Assembly (NCBI GenBank): GCA_029260025.1
Contig: JAJDDZ010000285.1
Location: 1-32,243, forward strand
DNA length: 32,243 nt
Source of the DNA: Phycisphaerae bacterium
GTDB taxonomy: Bacteria > Planctomycetota > Phycisphaerae > UBA1845
Direction of reading: 5' to 3'
The notes beneath the pieces are model-generated. The model had not been told where the DNA came from. It worked only from the letters and a program-made list of their open reading frames with translations, and did no database searches. Each line of letters begins with the position of its first letter. Position 1 is the stretch's first letter. Shown here in pieces: positions 2,064-14,976 of this stretch. A program made the translations under genes and the position numbers.

Positions 2064-3461
2064 CTACTGACCATCACCAAGGCGGCGAGGCCAATAGTCA
2101 TCAGGCGGAGGAGCATCCCGATCCCCGTCGGGGCGGATGTGCGAGAAAAGCGAATCTTTTTTCTTATCGTAAACCAAACGACCGTTCACAACCGTCCAAC
2201 GAACATGCGTCATGTAATGAAGAGGATCACCATCGGTTATCATGAAATTACCATCCTTGCCAATCTCAAGTGACCCAACCCGGTGGTCAATCCCAAGAAT
2301 ACGCGCAGCATCGATCGTAATCGAGCGAAGGGCAGCCTCCTCCGGAAGTCCGCCGCGAACAGCAAACGCAGCCTCCATATTCAGGTGTAACAGATCGCGA
2401 CCGGCAAGTCCCCAAGCGGTAATTGAGGCCGTCGACGGAACGATCGCGATGGATACCCCGTACTTATGCAGCGTCGCCGCATTTTCGATAGAGCGACCCG
2501 TCGGACGATTAAGACGCTCGTCCACGCCCGTATCCGTGCTAAAGATCGGCGGTCGAATCGAAATGATCGCAGACACCCCCGCACGCGCCATCCGACGAGC
2601 GACCGTCCATCCCTCAAGCGCACCGTCGATAACGATGCGAATCCCGTATCGCTCAGCAAGATCGCAAAACTGGTTAATCTCGTGGGCGGTATTAGCAGAA
2701 ACCTTCGCGACCGCCTCATGCTTGAGCAACTTGAAATACGTCTCGAAGTCGCCCTTCAACCATTCCTTGTCAGGTTCTTCCGCTTTCGGATCAGTCTTTT
2801 TCTTCTCGACATGCGACTGCAAGTCGCGCATGTACTGTCGAACCTTTTCAAACCCTTCGCGCACCTTACGTCGCTGTTTGGGATCCGAGGTCGAGTACCG
2901 AAGCCCAACAAAAAGGTCGCGCTTCACAACCATATCTTCTACCGAACCATACGTCAGAGAGACAGCCGTCTCACCCGAAACCGCCGTCGTAATTCCACTA
3001 GCCAGCGCGATCGTCATCCAAAGGGAGTAAACATCCGTCGTCTCTTCAGCCCTTCCGCTGCCAATAATGTTCCCGCCGCGAACGGCAACCAGCCCCGGAT
3101 AAAGATGAAAGCCAGAAGCATCAAGTGTTTCCGCGTCTTCAGGAATAACAACACCATGCCCCATTTCAGCAAGTCGGCCATTCTTTACGAGCACGGTAGC
3201 GTCATAAAGATCGCCACGAGAAAGCGTATGAATCGTCGCGCCAGTAACCGCGAAGTAAACATCCTTCTTCTCTTCCTTCTTGTCTTCGTCGTCTTTCTCC
3301 TCGTCGTCGCCTTTGGAGTCGGGGTCGTCCGTTTTCGTATCGACCGCTTCTTTCTTCTCTTCGGGCTTTGGATCTTCAGCAAAAGCGCGCGACGATGGTA
3401 GCACACAGCACGCCAAGCAAGCGAGAAGACAAAGTTGGATTAGCGATTCAAGTCGTCGCAT
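2064..3461 (-). CDS. Amidohydrolase-superfamily protein A, signal peptide, catalytic motifs lost (predicted pseudoenzyme)
   Basis: ORF 2064..3512 trimmed to ATG at 3461 (MRRLESLIQLCLLACLACCVLPSSRAFA = signal peptide; GAGAG upstream). C-terminus 'ARILGIDHRVGSLEIGKDGNFMITDGDPL' is amidohydrolase-like. 'LYPGLVAVRGGNIIG' stands where PGxIDxHxH is expected. Confidence 0.85.
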   Translation of the reverse strand: MRRLESLIQLCLLACLACCVLPSSRAFAEDPKPEEKKEAVDTKTDDPDSKGDDEEKDDEDKKEEKKDVYFAVTGATIHTLSRGDLYDATVLVKNGRLAEMGHGVVIPEDAETLDASGFHLYPGLVAVRGGNIIGSGRAEETTDVYSLWMTIALASGITTAVSGETAVSLTYGSVEDMVVKRDLFVGLRYSTSDPKQRRKVREGFEKVRQYMRDLQSHVEKKKTDPKAEEPDKEWLKGDFETYFKLLKHEAVAKVSANTAHEINQFCDLAERYGIRIVIDGALEGWTVARRMARAGVSAIISIRPPIFSTDTGVDERLNRPTGRSIENAATLHKYGVSIAIVPSTASITAWGLAGRDLLHLNMEAAFAVRGGLPEEAALRSITIDAARILGIDHRVGSLEIGKDGNFMITDGDPLHYMTHVRWTVVNGRLVYDKKKDSLFSHIRPDGDRDAPPPDDYWPRRLGDGQ

Positions 3462-3462
3462 G

Positions 3463-4818
3463 TTACTCTCGCCCCGCCAGTTTCTTGTCCCGCGCCCAAA
3501 CAATCTCACCAAGAATCATCACCCGAGTAACCTCGCTAAGCGGATCAAGAGGATCGCCATTGAAAAACGCCAGGTCGGCAAATTTGTCCTTCTCAATGGT
3601 CCCGAGCTTATCCTCAAGACCGATCGCCTTGGCTACGTTTTGCGTCAGCGCCTTCAACCCAGCCTCACGCGACAATCCCGTGCGAAGAAGCGATGCGACA
3701 CGACCTCGATACATCAAGAGTTCCTCTCGAGAATCATCCCACGGCATGGCAGCAACGTTGCACCCCCCTTGATCCAAGCGATTCATAAGGTTGTAGCGAA
3801 ACGTCGTATTCGGCATGTAGTGTGTCCACGGACGAAGGACAACCGTCGCCTTCCGCTCTCCGAGTTTTTCGACAGCAAGATGATAGTCGCTCGAACGCGA
3901 GGTCGCGAGATACAGTGTACGAGAAAGGTCTTTGTACTGGTCCATCACCGCGTCAAGGTGCAGCAAGTCGGACGCACGGGTTATCGTGACCGTCATCTGC
4001 CTGCCCTCTTTCTTCTCGATCAAGTCAACAAGTGGCTGATGCTTGGGATCGATCTTGGGAGGCTCAAACTTCTCCGCTTCCTTCTCTTCCTTGGCGTCTT
4101 CGGCATCACTTTCGTCATCCTCATCGGAGTCGCCCTCTTCTCGATAGGACTCGCCGCCCTCATCGTCGTATTCCTCGTCCGAGTCCGCTTCCTCCTCTGC
4201 CGCTTCTTCTTCCGCTTTTTCTTTCTGTTTCTTGTCCCACTCCTCGCGAGCTTTCTTGACCTTCTCTATTTCGTCTTTGGCTTTCTTCAGCGCACCGCCG
4301 AGCATCTTTCGACCACTGCTCCGCCAGTTCGGCGCGACCTGGAGATAGCTGTTGTCATCAAGCAATCGAAAATCATCGGGACCAGCAGTTCGATAGGTAG
4401 CGGCGGTCCCCGGAATGTCCGTACCAGCGGGCACAAGCGCCACAGCGACAAAACCCGCTTCGAGGAGATCGGCGAAATGCATTTGCGAAAGAGAGACTTC
4501 ATCAACAACGCTCTGATCGCCCTGCACACCGGTACGAGTGTACTTATCCAACCCAAACCGCGACCGCGGATGAATCAGACCGGGCATGACCGTTTCGCGC
4601 GGAGCGCGAATCAACTTTGCAGAGGAAGGATATTCAAGGTCGCTGCCAACGGCAGATATTTTTCCGTTTTCGATGACAACGACACCGGGCGAATACTCTT
4701 CACCAGAAACCGTGATGACGCGTCCAGCCTTGATAACAACAAAACCCTCATCGACGCCTCCGAGAACCGGAGAGGACATCACAAGAGCGATCGCAAAGGA
4801 GCAAAGCGTGTATCGCAT
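3463..4818 (-). CDS. Amidohydrolase-superfamily protein B, signal peptide, long acidic insert, HxH lost
   Basis: ORF 3463..4965 trimmed to ATG at 4818 (MRYTLCSFAIALVMSSPVLGG). 'VMPGLIHPRSRFGLDKY' and 'AIGLEDKLGTIEKDKFADLAFFNGDPLDP'. Starts 4 nt after the stop of gene C. Confidence 0.85.
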   Translation of the reverse strand: MRYTLCSFAIALVMSSPVLGGVDEGFVVIKAGRVITVSGEEYSPGVVVIENGKISAVGSDLEYPSSAKLIRAPRETVMPGLIHPRSRFGLDKYTRTGVQGDQSVVDEVSLSQMHFADLLEAGFVAVALVPAGTDIPGTAATYRTAGPDDFRLLDDNSYLQVAPNWRSSGRKMLGGALKKAKDEIEKVKKAREEWDKKQKEKAEEEAAEEEADSDEEYDDEGGESYREEGDSDEDDESDAEDAKEEKEAEKFEPPKIDPKHQPLVDLIEKKEGRQMTVTITRASDLLHLDAVMDQYKDLSRTLYLATSRSSDYHLAVEKLGERKATVVLRPWTHYMPNTTFRYNLMNRLDQGGCNVAAMPWDDSREELLMYRGRVASLLRTGLSREAGLKALTQNVAKAIGLEDKLGTIEKDKFADLAFFNGDPLDPLSEVTRVMILGEIVWARDKKLAGRE

Positions 4819-4822
4819 GGTT

Positions 4823-6064
4823 TTAGAACCGCCTCTTAACTTTGGCATCGTATGCGACCTTTCCCCGAATGACGGTGATTTCGCACGAGGACCGAGGGTC
4901 CAGCGGGTCGCCCGTCCAGATTCCGAAGTCAGCAGACTTACCCGGTTCGATCGAACCGACTTCACTGTCGATCATCAGCGCTTCAGCTGGGATCTTTGTC
5001 ACGCCCTTAAGCGCTTCGTAGGGAGTCCATCCGTACCAGCACGCCATGGCACCTTGGTAGCTAAGCTCCGCCTGGGGTACGACTGGGGCATCGGTATTGC
5101 AGCCGAGTTTTTTCTGACCGCTCTGCCACCATCTGGCGCAGTTTCCGTGCATCTTGCGCTGCGACCTGTCGAACCAATACTGTCGTGGTCCGTTAATCGT
5201 GTAAACGTCACTGCCCTTCAAGATCGCGGTTGTCTTGAATCCGTCGAACGTACCGTGGTCGATGATGGTTCGAATTTTGAGCTTCTTTGCGAGCATGTCC
5301 ACGGTCGTCATGACAACTTGATAGGCCTGCGTATGCACGGACGCGGGGAACTTTCGCTGAAAGAGGCCGCGAAAACCTTCGAAGATTGGATCAAACAATG
5401 GTGCATTGGCCACCTTTTTTTCCTCGAACGCGACCCACTTCTTGTGGTACCCGAGCGCCTTCTCCAGGGTCTGCCGGGTGTTATAGTTCATATAGCTTCG
5501 TCCGACGCCGTACCAGTACCACTCGGGGTTTCCAGCTTGGGCGATTTTCAGCGAGCCGGGCGCACGCATAACGACTTCATCAACGGTTCGCCCGGCGGTC
5601 TTGGTGATCGTGCCGAACCCGCTCATGTTTGTTCCGCTACCGGGAATCAATAGCACGGAGGTCACCCCGCCCGCTCTCGCTTGTTTGATGAGTTCGTTGT
5701 CGGGGACGATGGTCTCAAGCGTGCGAAGACCGGGGTTACTCAGATAAACCATGTCGTTGAGATCCGCCAAACTACCAGCGGTATGGTTGTGAGCATCGAC
5801 CAATCCGGGGACGACCCATTTATCGCTCGCGTCGATGACGCTGTAACCATCAGGGATCGGTGTCTTACCTTGCTGACCCAGTCCTTTGACGAGGCCGTCC
5901 TCGACGAAGACGATCGCGTTGTTGTAGACCGCGTCCTCACCGTTCATCGTGATGACTTTACCCGCTTTGATCGCGAGGCCACCGGCTTGCACGCTGTAAA
6001 TGCACCCTGCGAACGCGATACACGTCGCAGCAAGTCGAACATGTTTCCTACGTGTCGTAATCAT
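4823..6064 (-). CDS. Amidohydrolase (imidazolonepropionase-related) C: the only array member with intact canonical metal/catalytic motifs
   Basis: Signal peptide-like N-terminus. 'VVPGLVDAHNHTAG' (HxH at 5783..5791), 'SVHTQAYQVV', 'IRTIIDHGTFDG', 'LGCNTDAP', 'VGSIEPGKSADFGIWTGDPLDPRSS'. Confidence 0.93.
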   Translation of the reverse strand: MITTRRKHVRLAATCIAFAGCIYSVQAGGLAIKAGKVITMNGEDAVYNNAIVFVEDGLVKGLGQQGKTPIPDGYSVIDASDKWVVPGLVDAHNHTAGSLADLNDMVYLSNPGLRTLETIVPDNELIKQARAGGVTSVLLIPGSGTNMSGFGTITKTAGRTVDEVVMRAPGSLKIAQAGNPEWYWYGVGRSYMNYNTRQTLEKALGYHKKWVAFEEKKVANAPLFDPIFEGFRGLFQRKFPASVHTQAYQVVMTTVDMLAKKLKIRTIIDHGTFDGFKTTAILKGSDVYTINGPRQYWFDRSQRKMHGNCARWWQSGQKKLGCNTDAPVVPQAELSYQGAMACWYGWTPYEALKGVTKIPAEALMIDSEVGSIEPGKSADFGIWTGDPLDPRSSCEITVIRGKVAYDAKVKRRF

Positions 6065-8832
6065 TCGACTTCCTCTCCACCGACGAGCACTCGTTTGACG
6101 CGCGTCCGAGCTTCAAACGGATGGCCATCAAAAATCACGAGGTCGCCATGGCAGCCTTTTTTCAGCGAGCCGATCTCATCTTCGAGTTTGAACATCTTGC
6201 TTGGGCGTGTCGTGAAAGCAGAGAGGGCAGCGTCGGGCGACATCCCGCGTTGGACGGCGTGCAGTCCGAGATTGCGAAGGGATCTTGCGCCGTCCTCGGC
6301 GTCGCTTTGAAAAGCAACCGAAACGCCCTTTCGAGAAAGGTCGTCCGCCTGATGATACGGTGTATGGTTCAACCATCTAACGATCTTCGTTGGAACGACA
6401 ACGCCAATCGCCAACTCTATGAGTTTTTCGAAGTGGACAGCTGCCCCTTCTGCGTCGAGCAGAACGATTCCGACTTCAAACTCGCTGGCGAGCTTGAGAA
6501 CTTGTGCGATCTGCTGTTGATTCGAGGCTGCGATCAGCAGCGGAATCTTCTTTTCCAGGGCGGCGCGAATCGGTTCGAGACCGTCGTCCGTCTTCGGCGG
6601 AAGCGGGCGACCATCTTTGCCTCGCTTGCGACTCTTGACGACTTTGAACTGAACATCTTCCTTGTCGGTTCGAGTTGCATCGAGATCAATCACGATGTCT
6701 GATATCTTCAGCTCTCCGACGAGGTGGTCGGGTTCGGTCAAATCTGCTTCAATTGCGGGCGGACCAAACGGGGTCTCGACATCGATTTGCCCGGAGACAT
6801 GTTTCCCGTCGAACGTCGCGGTCACTTTCGCTTCGTCGGGTTGCCCTGGGATTCGGATTCGGCCTTCGATATCTGCGCCGTCGAGCTTCAAGAGCATCTT
6901 GGCTTGTTGCGGTTCGGGAATCGGACCGCCGGAGATTGTTACCTCCCATGTGCCGGTGATGGGATCTTCTTCTTGTGCTTCCTCGTCAAGGGCGTCGCCG
7001 TTCTTCTTGATCTCGATCTTCTCGCCTTTGGCTTTCTTTTCTTTCCACTCGGCGAGTTCCTTTTCGTACTTCTGCCACTTCTCCAAGTATTTCTTTCCTG
7101 CTTCGAGTCGCGGCTTGAGTTTTCCCAAGACTCCAGCGGGGTCGCCCTTTCGTACGTCGAAGTAGACGCTTGCGGCGTTTCGGACGAGCCGTTTGTCGCG
7201 TGTTGTTCCCGCTGTCTTGATGGCTGCGATTTGCGAACCTTGAGGGGAAGCGGCGTATGGGGCTGTTAGTACCGTAGTCACGCCCGACATTGCGACACGA
7301 TGTTCGCTTACGTCGGGGACGCCGACCATTGATGCCAGAGAGAGGTTTGGATTTAGCGAGCTGGTATCGCCATCTAGTCCGAGGTGACCGAAGGCGTCAA
7401 TGAATCCGGGCGTCACGAACGAGTTAGCACCAGCATCGATATAGTCTGCGAAACGCGGACGTGGGACGCTCGTGCCAACGGCGGAGATTCTTCCTTTTTC
7501 GATGAGGACCGACCCGTCCTCGATACGAGTATTCTCGTCGATCCAGATTGTTCCCGCGTGAACAACGACGGCGTCAACGTATGGCGCTTCGAACGCAACT
7601 AGACCTCCGACGTACACGCGTTTGACATGCGATGATGTTTCAAGGGGTGGCCCGCTCATAATGACGAGGTCTGCTTGTTTGCCTCGCTCGATGCTGCCAG
7701 TTCGATCGTCGATGCCAAGAATCTCGGCCGGAATACGGGTGATGGCAGCGAGCGTTTCCGCTTCGGTGAGTCCGGCACGCATAGCTGTCGCTGCAGAGAG
7801 ACGGAGTTGATCGACTCTCGCTCCCGCTGGTGGAGCGAGGGCGATTGTCGCGCCGCGGAGTTTCTTGAGCGCTTGAATGTCGCGATCGACGACATCGGGA
7901 TCGGGGCCTAGATCGTTTGAGATTGCGTCGAGCGGTTCGCCCATTACGAAAACCAGCGGCACATGTGCCTCGGCGATTTCTTGGGCGGTGATGTCCGCTT
8001 GTGCTCCGCCGACGAGGTACCCGCTGCGCTTGTGATTGTAAAGAAAACGGACGGCGCCAGTGATGTCGACCGATCGGTCAACGTGGATTCGCAGCGGGGC
8101 GTTGTTTCTCCACGCATTGGTTAGTGCGGCTGGGTGTAACCCCGACTTTGTTCCACTTTCTGCAACGCGAAGTGCTTCTTCAAGCGCAACGAATTGTCCT
8201 AGTCTTGAATCGGGTCGCTGCCGAACGCCCGGCGGGATCGCCACGTCCGAAGAAGCGGGGGTTTGGTAGGTTACGTCGTTGGGTGGGCCGTAGGCGGACT
8301 CGTTGAAGTTGATCGTGAGGTCCGAACGCTCATTCAGGATGCGCGACATCGGCGACCCGCCGAGTCGAACGATGGCCCCTTGGCCTGTTAGCAGTCGATG
8401 CGATCCGGGATCGAGATGAACGGTCGTGACGCCCTCAGCCAATGCTTCTTGAAAATCGCCGTAGTTATCGAACGCATCGAGCGCCAGGTACCCGGCGGCG
8501 ACCGACTCATCGCCTGCGTGCTTGGGGGTCATCGAATTCGCCGCGGCGATGAAACCCGGTACGACGTGGGCATCTTTGAGGTTGATCACTTTGAGGTCGG
8601 GTGGAATCGCCAAGTCTTTGCCAACTGCGACGACCAATCCATCGCGGACGATGACCATACCAGGTTCAAAGACTTCTGATGATTCTTTCGCTACGGGATA
8701 GACGCGTTTTGCTTTAATGACGAACGAATCTCCGTCGGCGAGGGTCGGCGTCGTTCCAAGCGCAAGCGCCGTGAGCGCAAGGGCGAAGGCCCTTGTCTTG
8801 AGGCGGCGTAGTTTCACGGTGGGAGAGATCAT
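6061..8832 (-). CDS. Two-module amidohydrolase-superfamily protein D (923 aa), both HxH sites degenerate, beta-rich insert in module 2
   Basis: Two copies of the N-terminal start motif ('FVIKAKRVYPVAKE', 'VVHAGTIWIDENTRIEDGSVLIEKGRISAVG') and two of the C-terminal motif ('GSIERGKQADLVIMSGPPLE', 'GSLKKGCHGDLVIFDGHPFE'). 'VPGFIAAANSMTP' and 'TPGFIDAFGHLGLDG'. ATGA overlap with gene C. Confidence 0.9.
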   Translation of the reverse strand: MISPTVKLRRLKTRAFALALTALALGTTPTLADGDSFVIKAKRVYPVAKESSEVFEPGMVIVRDGLVVAVGKDLAIPPDLKVINLKDAHVVPGFIAAANSMTPKHAGDESVAAGYLALDAFDNYGDFQEALAEGVTTVHLDPGSHRLLTGQGAIVRLGGSPMSRILNERSDLTINFNESAYGPPNDVTYQTPASSDVAIPPGVRQRPDSRLGQFVALEEALRVAESGTKSGLHPAALTNAWRNNAPLRIHVDRSVDITGAVRFLYNHKRSGYLVGGAQADITAQEIAEAHVPLVFVMGEPLDAISNDLGPDPDVVDRDIQALKKLRGATIALAPPAGARVDQLRLSAATAMRAGLTEAETLAAITRIPAEILGIDDRTGSIERGKQADLVIMSGPPLETSSHVKRVYVGGLVAFEAPYVDAVVVHAGTIWIDENTRIEDGSVLIEKGRISAVGTSVPRPRFADYIDAGANSFVTPGFIDAFGHLGLDGDTSSLNPNLSLASMVGVPDVSEHRVAMSGVTTVLTAPYAASPQGSQIAAIKTAGTTRDKRLVRNAASVYFDVRKGDPAGVLGKLKPRLEAGKKYLEKWQKYEKELAEWKEKKAKGEKIEIKKNGDALDEEAQEEDPITGTWEVTISGGPIPEPQQAKMLLKLDGADIEGRIRIPGQPDEAKVTATFDGKHVSGQIDVETPFGPPAIEADLTEPDHLVGELKISDIVIDLDATRTDKEDVQFKVVKSRKRGKDGRPLPPKTDDGLEPIRAALEKKIPLLIAASNQQQIAQVLKLASEFEVGIVLLDAEGAAVHFEKLIELAIGVVVPTKIVRWLNHTPYHQADDLSRKGVSVAFQSDAEDGARSLRNLGLHAVQRGMSPDAALSAFTTRPSKMFKLEDEIGSLKKGCHGDLVIFDGHPFEARTRVKRVLVGGEEVE

Positions 8833-10313
8833 TCCTTCTTTTTCTCAGCGTCTTTTGTCATTTCATTGGGTGCGGGTGCTTCTAGCTTGTCGGCGTCACC
8901 TTTGGAGTGTCCCGCCTTCGGATCAACGGGTGCTCCTTCGTTTTTTTCACCCTTTACCTGCTCGGGAATTTCCGGTTTCTCTTCTCCTAGAAGCTGCTTG
9001 AGGCGTACGTCGCTCTCTCGCTCGTAGGCGCGAATCCCGTTGATGTAAACCAAGTCTACCCAACTGGAAAAATCTAGCGGGTCCCCGCTCATGACGACGA
9101 CATTGGCCGTTTTGCCTACTTCAATCGATCCGAATCGGTCGCCAATACCGATCGCACGAGCCGGGTTGATCGTGATCGCTTCCAATGCTGTCTTGCGGGC
9201 GATGCCGTTTCGGACGCAACGAGCTGCCTGGTAATTCAAGTATCGCTCGGCGAGAGAGGTATCGCCGCTTGGTAAGAGCGAGAAGGCGACTCCGGCGTCG
9301 GCATAGACTTTTGGGATGAATGTTTCGGTGATCTTGCCGGTAATTGGGTTTTCTTCGCGATAGAGTAGTTGCGAATCGAGCACCACGGGGCGACCGGTCG
9401 CTTTGATCTCTTCGATCGCTTTGTAACAGCGCGGACCGAGGACAAGCGTCGTTTGATCGAAGAAGCCGTGCTGTTTGGCGAGACTCTCTGCGGCCGCGAT
9501 GTCAGCGGCACGGCCCGCGTAGACGAAAGCGCCGAGTTGTCCGCCTGTGAGCTTTACGAGGTTTCTGTGCTTGTCATCGTAGTCTTCTGGTTTGATTAGG
9601 TCCTTACCAAGTTTTTTGGCTTCGTCGGGACCGACTTTGATTTTCTCGTCTTTCTTCTCCAGCGATTCTTCGTACTTGGTCTCGGCTAAGTCGTCGAGAT
9701 ACTCGGCAAGTTCGCGAAATGTTTCGCGGAAGGTGGCCAGCTGCGCCATACGGTCGGAACGGTTTTGCGGTGCAACGCTTAGTTTCAGGGAAACGGAGGG
9801 TTGTTGGGTCATCTCGTCGGGGGTGATTCCGATAGGGTGGATGGCGCGACTGAGACCACCGATGACGCAGTTGTGACCGACGATCGCGTGAATCGTGGTG
9901 ATTCCGTCGCGCAACGCGTCTTCGAAGTAGAGTTTCGATGGGTCGATCGCATCGTAGACGTCAAGGAATGGGGTGACGTCTAGGTTTTCGTTTCGAATGT
10001 CTAGACCCCGCGCCGAATGGGCGTCGATCATGCCGGGCATGACGACTTTTCCGGTCACGTCAACGACCATTGCGTCGTAGGGGATTTCGACATCCTTGCC
10101 TACCGCTTTGATCTTACCGTGTTCGATCAGGATGGTTCCTACGGGGATGTCTTCACCGACGATCGGGATGATTCGCCCTCCCTTGAGAGCGATCTTCGCG
10201 GGTGGTGACGCGAAAGTGGCTGTCGCGATAAGCAACGCGGCGAGCGCGGTCATGAATTGTATTGAAAAGCGACGGTTCACAACTATCTCCGTTCGATCAC
10301 GATTTGACTTCAT
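8829..10313 (-). CDS. Amidohydrolase-superfamily protein E, HxH degenerate, charged C-terminal tail
   Basis: 'VVMPGMIDAHSARGLDIRNENLD' and 'ARAIGIGDRFGSIEVGKTANVVVMSGDPLDFSS'. Lys/Glu/Pro-rich C-terminal tail. ATGA overlap with gene D. Confidence 0.88.
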   Translation of the reverse strand: MKSNRDRTEIVVNRRFSIQFMTALAALLIATATFASPPAKIALKGGRIIPIVGEDIPVGTILIEHGKIKAVGKDVEIPYDAMVVDVTGKVVMPGMIDAHSARGLDIRNENLDVTPFLDVYDAIDPSKLYFEDALRDGITTIHAIVGHNCVIGGLSRAIHPIGITPDEMTQQPSVSLKLSVAPQNRSDRMAQLATFRETFRELAEYLDDLAETKYEESLEKKDEKIKVGPDEAKKLGKDLIKPEDYDDKHRNLVKLTGGQLGAFVYAGRAADIAAAESLAKQHGFFDQTTLVLGPRCYKAIEEIKATGRPVVLDSQLLYREENPITGKITETFIPKVYADAGVAFSLLPSGDTSLAERYLNYQAARCVRNGIARKTALEAITINPARAIGIGDRFGSIEVGKTANVVVMSGDPLDFSSWVDLVYINGIRAYERESDVRLKQLLGEEKPEIPEQVKGEKNEGAPVDPKAGHSKGDADKLEAPAPNEMTKDAEKKKE

Positions 10314-11809
10314 CCTTTGCGTCGATCCACAACAATTTTTCCGCCGGAAATAACCACGACTGGCTTTGAAGCCCCGTCAAACGGTTCGCCGTTCCAGAGA
10401 ATCAGGTCGGCGCGTTTCCCTGATGCGACAGTTCCGACTTCGTCGTCGATACCGAGAAGCTTGGCGGGGGTTTCTGTGACACATCTAGTCACATCTTCGA
10501 GCGACACGCCGAAGCGCCTCGCGTACATCGCTTGTCTTGCGAGTCCGTCTTCGTCGCGAAGCTCGTGGGCGGTTAGTGCCGTCGGGATTCCGGCGCGAAG
10601 CAATTCTTTGAGCGTGTGCAGTCTCGCGTTGTCGACCTCCGAGCTAAACGCCCGTGCGCCAGGCGCGTCAACATATACAGGGCCGTATACGACGGGGGAT
10701 TTAGAATCTCTTAATTCGTCGAGACACCGATGGGCTTCGGTAGCTTCGATGAGCGTGAATTCTAGTCCGAACTCATCGGCGAGGCGAAGGGCGGCGAGAA
10801 TATCGTGTTGCATTCGAGCCTGTATTCGTAGTGGAATCTTACCGGCGAGCACATGGCGAAGCTCTTTCATGGCTGGCTCTGTCGGGGCGTCTGCGCCGTA
10901 GACAATCTCGCCTTTGTCGAATCGATCCGTGTCATACATCGCTTTGCGGAAGACCCACGCGACGCCCATGCGCGTTGTCGGTCTTCGGTTGTAGAAGTTG
11001 ACGAATTCGCGGAAAGGCAAATTATTGCTGAACCCGCGACGCGCCGGATCCGAACCCATCGAAGCCATGACGGCGCCCGACTCTCGAACGACTCTATCGT
11101 GCAATGACCCCGCCGTTCTTAGGATTGCGCCCTGAGAACTGATGACCGCTGCTGAGTCTGGTGCCGCGAAGACCGTTGTGACACCACCGCCCGCGAGACG
11201 ATCGAAGTCGGGTGATCTAAGATTGACCGAGTCGATAACGCGTGTGTGAGGAATAACTTCTGAAGAATGCTCCACCGACATCGCCGAGCGTCGAACGCCG
11301 ACTGCCATTGCTGGACTCGTATCGGGGAAACCGCACTGTTTGCACTTTGCACCGGATGCATGCTGAAGCTGACGGGGACAACTTGAACCGCAGCACCCGA
11401 CGGATTCGTTTTCATGACCTTTGTGGTCGCCGTGAAAGAGGTCGGCGGCGACTTGTCTGGCGTTGCGCCGATCGACCATCATGACATCTGTTGGTTCGAG
11501 GGCTGCGTTGGCATCGATCAGACCTGGGGTGATTGAACCGCCTGCAAGCTCGATGACTTTCGCGTCGGCGGGAATCGTAAGGTTGGCACCGACTTGTGTG
11601 ATGCGCCCGTTGCGAATAACGACGACGCCGTGATCGATAATCTCGCCGTTTCCAATGTGGACGGTGGCACCTTTTAGCACGATCGCATTATCAGCGGCGC
11701 GAACGGGCGGAATGGTCAACATCCCCGCGATCACGGCGGCGATACCGAGCTGGACGATATGCAAACCCTTCAAACATAGGGGCTTCTGATGATTGGCGCT
11801 AATCTTCAT
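10310..11809 (-). CDS. Amidohydrolase-superfamily protein F, HxH lost, Cys/His-rich insert
   Basis: 'SITPGLIDANAALEPTD', 'LRIQARMQHDILAALRLADEFGLEFTLIEATEA', 'AKLLGIDDEVGTVASGKRADLILWNGEPFDG'. ATGA overlap with gene E. Confidence 0.88.
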   Translation of the reverse strand: MKISANHQKPLCLKGLHIVQLGIAAVIAGMLTIPPVRAADNAIVLKGATVHIGNGEIIDHGVVVIRNGRITQVGANLTIPADAKVIELAGGSITPGLIDANAALEPTDVMMVDRRNARQVAADLFHGDHKGHENESVGCCGSSCPRQLQHASGAKCKQCGFPDTSPAMAVGVRRSAMSVEHSSEVIPHTRVIDSVNLRSPDFDRLAGGGVTTVFAAPDSAAVISSQGAILRTAGSLHDRVVRESGAVMASMGSDPARRGFSNNLPFREFVNFYNRRPTTRMGVAWVFRKAMYDTDRFDKGEIVYGADAPTEPAMKELRHVLAGKIPLRIQARMQHDILAALRLADEFGLEFTLIEATEAHRCLDELRDSKSPVVYGPVYVDAPGARAFSSEVDNARLHTLKELLRAGIPTALTAHELRDEDGLARQAMYARRFGVSLEDVTRCVTETPAKLLGIDDEVGTVASGKRADLILWNGEPFDGASKPVVVISGGKIVVDRRKG

Positions 11810-13014
11810 CGCTGTCCCCCTGCCAAGGCGGTCTGTTGTTCGTCGGCGCTGTAAACGCGAATTCCATCGATGTAAACCGCAAGTACGCGCGAATCCAGTC
11901 GTAGCGGGTCACCTGAGAAGATTACCAGGTCAGCATCCATCCCCGGGCGGATCGCACCGATCCGATTGGAAACGCCGGCTGCCTTCGCAGCGTTCAGTGT
12001 GATCGCCAAACGAGCTTTGGCTGGATCCATCCCGTATCGAACCGCGAGGGAAGCGGTCTGACGCAACGCATGTCCGCCTTCGATCGGCATGCGCCCGGCG
12101 AGCGCAACATCAACCCCGGCACCAGAGAGAACGCCCGCAGTAGAGAGCGTCCGTTGGGTCATCGAGAATGAATATGGGCCAACGATCATCATGGCCTTTG
12201 ATCCGGCGACTTCTTCTGCGAGATCGTGAACGTCGCTTGTGTGGACGATCGATACATTAGCTGCGAGCTTGCCGACGGATCGGAGGGCAGCCCCTACGTC
12301 CATGGCGTCATTGCAGAAAAGCATTGCGTCGAGTTTCCCGGAGGCGATCGCTTGTAATTTTGCATGTTGGGGGTGTTGCGAACTTCCCCGACTATCTGCT
12401 AGCGTTGAACGAAGCATCGCCATCGCACCGATTCGCGAGGTCGGCTCTCGGTCATATTTCCAAGTCGCGGGACCGAACCCGAACACAAGGGGGCCGTCGT
12501 CACGAAGAACGCTTCCTGCTCGTGCGGAGGTCTTTCCGCCGGTCTTGACCACCGCACAACTACCCGCGACGAGATTTGCCGGCGCGGGGGCGATCAGGGC
12601 GGCCGTGATTCCTGATTCAACGGCGAGGCGGAAATCGCGATGATCCGGAACGAACGAGTCGATGACTGAGACGCCCGGATCGACGGAAAACGCGGATTCT
12701 ACAGTGTTTCCGTAAGCGCCCATTGACGAACGAACGTCGATCAGACCCGGACAAACGACGGCATCGTTGTAGTATGCGATTTTTGCGTCGTCGGCGATCT
12801 TTGCGTCTGGTAGAATCGCGGCGATCTTCCCGTTGGACAGGGTAATGATTCGCTTTGGTCCGATGGTGCCATCAGGTGCCACATAGCGACCTGCGACAAT
12901 CGCCGTGGGGGCACGTTGCGAATTCTGTGCGCGAGCATGAGCGCCTGAGGCGACCACGGTCGTCGCAGCGGCAATGAGAGAGCAAACCATAGGCGTCGAT
13001 CGAACGAACTGCAT
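11806..13014 (-). CDS. Amidohydrolase-superfamily protein G, HxH lost
   Basis: Signal peptide 'MQFVRSTPMVCSLIAAATTVVASGAHA'. 'VVCPGLIDVRSSMGAYG' and 'IGAIRPGMDADLVIFSGDPLRLDSRVLAVYIDG'. ATGA overlap with gene F. Confidence 0.87.
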   Translation of the reverse strand: MQFVRSTPMVCSLIAAATTVVASGAHARAQNSQRAPTAIVAGRYVAPDGTIGPKRIITLSNGKIAAILPDAKIADDAKIAYYNDAVVCPGLIDVRSSMGAYGNTVESAFSVDPGVSVIDSFVPDHRDFRLAVESGITAALIAPAPANLVAGSCAVVKTGGKTSARAGSVLRDDGPLVFGFGPATWKYDREPTSRIGAMAMLRSTLADSRGSSQHPQHAKLQAIASGKLDAMLFCNDAMDVGAALRSVGKLAANVSIVHTSDVHDLAEEVAGSKAMMIVGPYSFSMTQRTLSTAGVLSGAGVDVALAGRMPIEGGHALRQTASLAVRYGMDPAKARLAITLNAAKAAGVSNRIGAIRPGMDADLVIFSGDPLRLDSRVLAVYIDGIRVYSADEQQTALAGGQR

Positions 13015-14639
13015 TACGATCCACCTTCCGATAGCTGCGGGGCTAAGTAGGCGAGTTTCCCGCCTACGAAAACGCGTTCGACAATTGAACTAGGATCACC
13101 GGGATCGCCCGACCAGATGACTAAATCGGCTTCCATTCCTTGCTCGATGCGTCCGATCCTTCTTGACATCGAAAGAAATCGAGAAGCGTCTCCGGTGAGC
13201 TTGTAGAGCCAAGCGTATTGTGTTGAGCCATTGAAACTCTTCTTGTAGCCGTTTGATGTTGCCAGTTGCGAGTTGAAGGCGATGAAACGTGCCGCCGTTG
13301 GGTCGTGGCCACCGCTTCCGATCATCCATCTCACCCCAGCACTCGTGAGAAGCTCGGCGTTGCGCGTTGTATGGCGGCGGAACTCTGTGTCTTCGAAGAC
13401 CGCAGTTCTGCCAACCTGCCCCAAGACGACCGGAACCTCAGACGTCGCCAGCGCGTCCGCGACGAGATACGCTTCGGTAGCCCCTTCGATGACGATATCA
13501 AGATTGAACTCGTCTGCGAGGGCAAGGGCATTGAGAATGCCGTCGGAGCGATGGGCTTCGATTCGGACTGGGAATTCGTGGTCGATGGACTTGAGTATCA
13601 CGTGGGAGACGGCGTCGAACGCTGGTTTTGCAGGTTTTTTTAGCTCGTCTTCGTCTTTTTTCTCGTCCCCGTTGTTGTCGCCGTCCTTACCGCTATCGCC
13701 CTGCTTGTCGTCGTCTGAACCATCCTCAGCCAGGGGCGTCTTCTCCGAGCCCGGAGCGAAGAAACTGCGAAGACTGGTATGCTTACCATCTCCGTCCTCT
13801 TTTTCTTCCTCTTTGTCGCCATCTTCCTTTTCGTCGTCGCCTGGATCGGGAGCGGGCGTCTTGTCATCGGTGGACTTTTCGTCTTTTGGGGACTCATCCC
13901 CCTTCTTGTCGCCGTCCTCTTTGTTGCGAAGTTCTTCGAGCTTTTTGACGTACTCTTTCAAATCTTCGTCATAGTCTTCGAGTGATTCGCGGTAGTCGAT
14001 GGCGGATTGAAATTGCTTGCGGATGGCGGCAAATGTCTTAATGCGTGCGATCGGGGAACGGTCTGATCCGAAGTTGACGCAGAGCGCGGCGTCCTTCTCG
14101 CGAACGATGCCGGCGGACTTTCCTGCACCGGGTGCGAGCTGAATGATGGCTGCGGTTCCGTTGATTCCAGCCCCGCCGTCTGCGCCGATGTAGATCGTTG
14201 TTACGCCGTGTCTAAGTGCTTCGCGGAAGTCGTTTCGAGCGTATCTGTCGAACCCGTCTTGGGCGCGGGAAGTCGCTTTGCCATCGCTGGCGCCTCCGGT
14301 TCGACCGAGCGTGCTCCAGACATCGATGAGACCGGGCGTGACTGTCTTGCCGGCGCCGGCCACCTTTTTCGAGAGAAATGGCGCTTTCGCAGTTGCTCCG
14401 ACGGCTTCGATCTTACCGCCCTTGATGATGATGGAACCTTTCTCGATGACCAACCCACTACCGGTCATGATCCTAGCGTCGGTGATGACGGTCGCTCGTT
14501 CTAGGAGTTGCCCGTGGGCGGGGGCAACGTGTAACGCAACAAAAAAAGCGATTGCGAATAGTCGGACGTAGCGCCGGCGCAGAAGCCCCCCGGCCATCGA
14601 AAATGTGAAGTGGCGGGTTTTCATCGCGAGAAGGTGCAT
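13014..14639 (-). CDS. Amidohydrolase-superfamily protein H, HxH lost, large Asp/Glu/Lys-rich insert; first gene of the array
   Basis: ORF 13014..14837 trimmed to ATG at 14639 (alternative 14624). Hydrophobic 'YVRLFAIAFFVALHVAPAHG' segment. 'TVTPGLIDVWSTLG', 'FPVRIEAHRSDGILNALALADEFNLDIVIEGATEAY', 'IGRIEQGMEADLVIWSGDPGDPSS'. TAATG overlap with gene G. Confidence 0.86.
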   Translation of the reverse strand: MHLLAMKTRHFTFSMAGGLLRRRYVRLFAIAFFVALHVAPAHGQLLERATVITDARIMTGSGLVIEKGSIIIKGGKIEAVGATAKAPFLSKKVAGAGKTVTPGLIDVWSTLGRTGGASDGKATSRAQDGFDRYARNDFREALRHGVTTIYIGADGGAGINGTAAIIQLAPGAGKSAGIVREKDAALCVNFGSDRSPIARIKTFAAIRKQFQSAIDYRESLEDYDEDLKEYVKKLEELRNKEDGDKKGDESPKDEKSTDDKTPAPDPGDDEKEDGDKEEEKEDGDGKHTSLRSFFAPGSEKTPLAEDGSDDDKQGDSGKDGDNNGDEKKDEDELKKPAKPAFDAVSHVILKSIDHEFPVRIEAHRSDGILNALALADEFNLDIVIEGATEAYLVADALATSEVPVVLGQVGRTAVFEDTEFRRHTTRNAELLTSAGVRWMIGSGGHDPTAARFIAFNSQLATSNGYKKSFNGSTQYAWLYKLTGDASRFLSMSRRIGRIEQGMEADLVIWSGDPGDPSSIVERVFVGGKLAYLAPQLSEGGS

Positions 14640-14976
14640 CAATCCCCTCAACCTCGTAAACTCTGTATTTGCAGACTGCGTCCGGCGTCGAACTAACCTA
14701 AGCTCAACAACTTCACTATACTCGGCGCTACAGGATGAGAAAATACATAGAAATGGTTTCTGGGGCAAAACAGAAAATATGCACAAGTATTTACAAACCG
14801 TCGCGTCAACACAGTTACGCGTTGCTTGCGATGGCAACCAGTCCGTATCAATATAGATATGGCTATGGCGGGAGGAAAAAGATTTGCGCGGAGTCGCGGA
14901 AACTTTTTTTTGGACGGGGTCTATTCGAGCCGCCCGTCAGACAGACGAGGGTCTCTGGCTTCAAGGAAATCGCAGA

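Follow-up and report, generated by a model that had tools for sequence, protein, structure and literature searches.

Eight consecutive genes of a Phycisphaerae bacterium encode nine amidohydrolase modules, of which one, gene C, carries a complete metal site while the other eight have lost it. The conserved array of live and dead modules points to a multi-part enzyme not described before, most of whose parts would be retired copies of the enzyme itself.

The operon and the metal site of gene C

The array lies at positions 2064-14624 on the minus strand of the window, i.e. the whole stretch of 32,243 nucleotides that was analysed. The initial annotation had given it as 4823-13014, an interval that spans C to G only. 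Read along the minus strand, the genes are H, G, F, E, D, C, B and A, gene D comprising two modules. Their junctions range from a 4-bp overlap (ATGA at G/F, F/E, E/D and D/C) to a 4-bp gap and, since all of them lie within 4 bp, the eight genes almost certainly form one translationally coupled operon. A hydrophobic signal-like segment is found at the N terminus of all eight products, which points to their probable export. Neighbouring genes conserved phylum-wide were sought as a hint to the substrate and none was found; the array is therefore a self-contained unit. Scanning the region upstream of H for a sigma-70 promoter gave no hit. At the opposite end, a gene for a PKD-domain protein (3-1682), located on the other strand and cut by the contig start, adjoins the operon.

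All eight products score above the curated cut-off of the Pfam superfamily models (PF01979/PF07969). The first gene of the operon, H (13014-14624), encodes a dead module with a long acidic insert and a signal-like N terminus (Amidohydro_1, 35.4 bits; residues at the six ligand positions WTCEGG) that belongs to a slot clade of its own; its start is taken as the ATG before MKTRHF, the open reading frame as listed beginning at 14837. Gene G (11806-13014; Amidohydro_1, 46.5 bits; RSVFTR) overlaps the stop of H by 1 bp and is followed by gene F (10310-11809; Amidohydro_1, 45.2 bits; NAMQAH), which shares an ATGA overlap with G; both encode dead modules. The dead module of gene E (8829-10313; Amidohydro_1, 54.9 bits; HAKYPG), whose start lies in an ATGA overlap with F, keeps the first His and the beta4 Lys. 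Gene D (6061-8832) encodes two fused dead modules, D1 at the N terminus (ANTHGP) and D2 at the C terminus (FHFAAD). Gene C (4823-6064) encodes the one module whose binuclear metal site is complete. Gene B (3463-4818, with an alternative ATG at 4848; Amidohydro_3, 34.3 bits; PSQITW) encodes a dead module with an acidic coiled insert, and the last gene, A (2064-3461; Amidohydro_1, 52.7 bits; VGGSGS), a dead module with an acidic N-terminal linker. Long acidic, low-complexity stretches thus occur at the N terminus of A and in the middle of B and H, those of B and H sitting in the region where D2 has an insert. The D2 insert (window about 6600-7000, minus strand) consists of a long helix and then a beta-rich domain between beta4 and beta5. 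It has no Pfam match. Its motif TGxW...SGGPLPEP is found again when a majority consensus is taken over 57 relatives.

Six ligand positions were located in C: H92, H94, K173, H244, H270 and D325. The initial annotation had listed five of them correctly and missed the sixth, the beta4 Lys173 in GSLKIAQAGN, a residue that E has retained as well. In the binuclear enzymes of the amidohydrolase superfamily this beta4 Lys is carboxylated and bridges the metals; it is intact in 86 of 86 C copies. The closest relative of known structure is the Thermotoga amidohydrolase 3ooq, which aligns over most of the length of C (E 6.6e-35) and whose HxH, Lys, His, His and Asp line up with the C ligands. Folds were modelled for C and D. 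The AlphaFold2 model of C (pLDDT 91.5, pTM 0.92) has 3ooq as its sole close Foldseek match (TM 0.85; next listed about 0.6), and that of D (pLDDT 89.9, pTM 0.76) has 3ooq as its best match (TMt 0.82; next listed 0.59). C is therefore 3ooq-like by sequence and fold and D by fold and, as D has kept the fold, it is the metal site that was lost and not the fold, at least in D. Among the NCBIfam matches listed, no operon product reaches the equivalog cut-off of a family. C and D score 72.5 and 78.5 bits against the Xaa-Pro dipeptidase NF051886 (cut-off 500 bits) and 42.5 and 76.8 bits against the imidazolonepropionase HutI TIGR01224 (cut-off 298 bits). We conclude that C is a binuclear metallohydrolase, of predicted metal content.

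Gene C alone possesses the HxH, the beta4 Lys, the beta5 and beta6 His and the beta8 Asp of a catalytic member; none of the other eight modules has the full set. At the HxH position C reads DAHNH, whereas the other modules read AVRGG (A), HPRSR (B), AAANS (D1), DAFGH (D2), DAHSA (E), DANAA (F), DVRSS (G) and DVWST (H). All nine motifs are as first quoted, and so is the combination of SVHTQ, IDHGT and NTDAP in C alone.

The array across the phylum

In the host order, 17 other genomes, which represent three families, contain relatives of C with 53-88% identity; gene order there is unchanged as far as the contigs extend. A scan of 84,980 species genomes, in data that are largely metagenome-assembled, gave 135 C relatives, the best 80 of which were analysed as loci. 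The record titles of these best 80 are nearly all from Planctomycetota (Phycisphaerae, Pirellulales, Gemmatales, Singulisphaera); two of them, L078 and L082, bear titles from outside the phylum and may be misnamed. A C-like match was found in 136 of 394 sampled genomes of the phylum. The system is widespread but patchy and, with its C family in only about a third of the sampled genomes, it is not essential.

The earlier description of one enzyme among pseudoenzymes holds in the window and phylum-wide. In the loci of the best 80 of 135 relatives, all 84 complete slot-C copies possess the six ligands (HHKHHD), as against none of 455 complete modules of the other eight slots, which retain three of six at most; some of these loci are near-duplicates, so that the copies are not fully independent. 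The contrast between the live C and the dead others is far beyond chance. Each dead slot has its own conserved polar residues, slots G and H being faster-evolving and weakly conserved.

Essentially all of the 52 loci flanked on both sides display the order H-G-F-E-D1D2-C-B-A with each dead slot filled once: eight non-C modules accompany one C in 42 loci and two C in five. In the remaining five, a module is split over two reading frames (L076, L079), the contig ends (L080) or the operon is split (L078, L101). Where the operon is split, the missing slots are located elsewhere in the same genome, the remainders consisting of H-G-F with a partial E (L173), or of H-G-F-E-D (L176) and C-B-A (L177). 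Modules are also fused in a lineage-specific manner, E, D1 and D2 forming one frame in L079 and H and G one frame in Pirellulaceae-like loci. Gene borders therefore shift with lineage while the module set is constant. In 12 further genomes, each dead slot that the contigs cover is occupied by one dead module, whereas slot C, the only one with extra copies, holds one to five tandem copies that are intact wherever complete. Three to five such copies, intact where complete, occur in otherwise standard arrays in L147/L148, L149/L150 and L157. These tandem copies possibly represent diversification of the catalytic subunit.

In a tree of 111 modules, every slot forms a single clade, with 11 changes, the minimum possible, although support for the clade of slot G is weak and not all deep joins are certain. 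The nine paralogs are therefore older than the split of the sampled lineages. Between the window and its nearest relative, dN/dS is 0.057-0.126 for all genes (0.058 for C, 0.06-0.13 for the dead genes), with dS near saturation. By this sequence measure, purifying selection acts on the dead genes as it does on C. The attributes that define a pseudoenzyme are thus found together, with the fold kept (as seen in the model of D only), the catalytic residues lost and the gene maintained by selection.

Simpler sets are encoded in the same genomes. Pairs of genes, one for an intact and one for a dead module, were found in, e.g. L027, L028, L030, L032, L033, L057 and L058, the pair members forming separate clades in the 111-module tree. 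The live gene of the host genome's own pair (L057:10179-11532) is represented by two overlapping reading frames, through a frame break or an assembly error. One fused protein of ~1430 residues (L031:1-4044) comprises three modules, of which the central one is near-intact (HHKHQD) and the two flanking it lack the site; long reading frames of this kind are common in the relatives. Two two-gene loci (L174, L175), from a genome titled Gemmatimonadota bin75, each encode a long protein of two modules and another protein of one; of these three modules, one is near-intact and two are dead. The association of a live module with dead relatives is therefore a habit of this family, and the nine-module array is the extreme of it.

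Readings of the eight dead modules

The array probably encodes one exported heteromeric metallohydrolase with one type of catalytic subunit, C, and eight pseudoenzyme subunits, the assembly and the substrate being predicted from the genes. C would be a TIM-barrel amidohydrolase that binds two metals through H92/H94, the carboxylated K173, H244, H270 and D325 and hydrolyses a substrate that is probably peptide-like or a cyclic amide. A, B, D1, D2, E, F, G and H would be formerly active modules that, having lost their metal site, occupy distinct positions as non-catalytic subunits of an assembly derived from an ancestral homo-oligomer. Their possible tasks are construction of the complex, shaping or gating of the entry to C, and substrate binding. 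Fixed order and near-zero spacing would keep the subunits stoichiometric, and lineages with two to five intact C copies would swap the catalytic subunit, or diversify it, on an unchanged pseudo-scaffold.

Several lines of evidence support the dead modules as dedicated non-catalytic partners of C, a role that the initial annotation had already proposed: order, copy number, fusions, purifying selection and co-retention when the operon is split all speak for it, while the loss of activity is read from the residues. On indirect grounds, they are most likely subunits of one exported hetero-oligomer, because order is fixed, each dead slot is single-copy, the genes are tightly coupled and neighbours fuse in some lineages, and because the slots are retained together when the operon splits, are under equal selection and gain extra copies in the catalytic slot only. 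Counted against the heteromeric reading are the pTM of only 0.76 for the D fusion, the weak conservation of G and H, the presence of the C family in about a third of genomes and the partial metal site of D2 in some lineages. It is conceivable, at somewhat less than even chances, that the system represents a new exported multi-subunit hydrolase class of Planctomycetota: at least nine different homologous TIM barrels would form an obligate complex, with eight pseudoenzyme types providing the fixed scaffold or chamber and enclosing one catalytic type that can be exchanged.

An unlikely alternative is that the dead modules act in the pathway of C as independent exported binding proteins, receptors or carriers with emptied barrel pockets, and do not form a single complex. 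The fold retained in D, the slot-specific conserved polar residues and the signal-like N termini would all suit such proteins. However, fixed order, single copies and fusions of neighbouring slots are hard to explain without physical contact, and no transporter or receptor gene is conserved nearby.

It is slightly less probable still that some dead modules are active, through another chemistry or ligands recruited elsewhere, E and D2 being those that might bind one metal. The dead slots are indeed unequally stripped, E and D2 retaining partial sites. Slot E keeps the first His in 53 of 63 cases and the Lys in 58 of 63, and slot D2 keeps the HxH in 16 and the Asp in 22 of 59 complete orthologs, the second His being often kept. 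Nevertheless, the positions kept vary among orthologs of the same slot, and D2 lacks the beta5 and beta6 His in all complete orthologs from the loci of the best 80 of 135 relatives. The ortholog comparison showed no alternative invariant set of His, Asp or Lys in any dead slot. The initial annotation had named intact ligands from alternative residues in several paralogs as a finding that would overturn it, and only the partial sites of D2 and E were seen.

That the array is a decaying tandem duplication, with dead modules as relics on the way to loss, is very improbable: the lost catalytic residues and the lower conservation of G and H would fit, but the frames are open, dN/dS is low, the modules are retained in order phylum-wide and the slots predate the sampled lineages. 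The reading of the modules as relics or pseudogenes was thus rejected on selection, slot clades, ligand counts and conserved order. Alignment or assembly artefacts, for which the largely metagenome-assembled data would speak, are hardly credible as the cause of the ligand losses and were rejected on the ligand counts and on the recurrence of identical losses in independent assemblies, C copies on the same contigs being always intact and AlphaFold2 confirming the fold of C and D.

Relation to known systems and meaning

The heteromeric reading has partial parallels. The Thermotoga maritima amidohydrolase 3ooq, the best match of C by sequence and fold and of D by fold, is a single intact protein in its crystal, unlike the planctomycete system with its eight diverged dead partners; neither a paper on 3ooq/TM0814 nor a function was found in the open-access literature searched. 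The CRMP or dihydropyrimidinase-related proteins, which are among the PDB matches, possess an amidohydrolase fold without enzyme function, but they are eukaryotic cytosolic proteins and not products of a bacterial operon that includes a live member. Live and dead paralogs share one assembly, the dead ones in fixed positions, in cyanobacterial ClpP/ClpR and in the eukaryotic proteasome beta ring. These rings have other folds and a lower ratio of dead to live types, and the planctomycete assembly is a predicted one. The pairs and one-live two-dead sets described above belong to the same family and likewise join a live module to dead partners, but their dead modules number one or two, not eight. 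In the Pseudomonas aeruginosa ATCase dodecamer, an inactive chain of the amidohydrolase superfamily, the pseudo-dihydroorotase pDHO, is needed for the activity of its partner (PMC7053772). It provides a precedent for dead partners beside an active enzyme; unlike the array, in which a live module is joined by eight dead types that are its own paralogs, it is one dead chain type beside an unrelated enzyme.

No paper describing the array was found in the part of the open-access literature covered, and no family model matches it. A 2026 preprint on metal-dependent bile salt hydrolases concerns other amidohydrolases, and the text of the Tuwongella subcellular proteome paper does not mention amidohydrolases.

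For eight of the nine modules, the automatic label 'amidohydrolase' misleads. The conserved planctomycete operon, which has no known role, is now a defined target, and the simpler sets of one live and one or two dead modules provide a series for testing how pseudoenzyme subunits accrue and what they contribute. Overall, the array is an extreme conversion of enzymes to pseudoenzymes, with eight dead paralogs for one live and with order and number fixed across the phylum.
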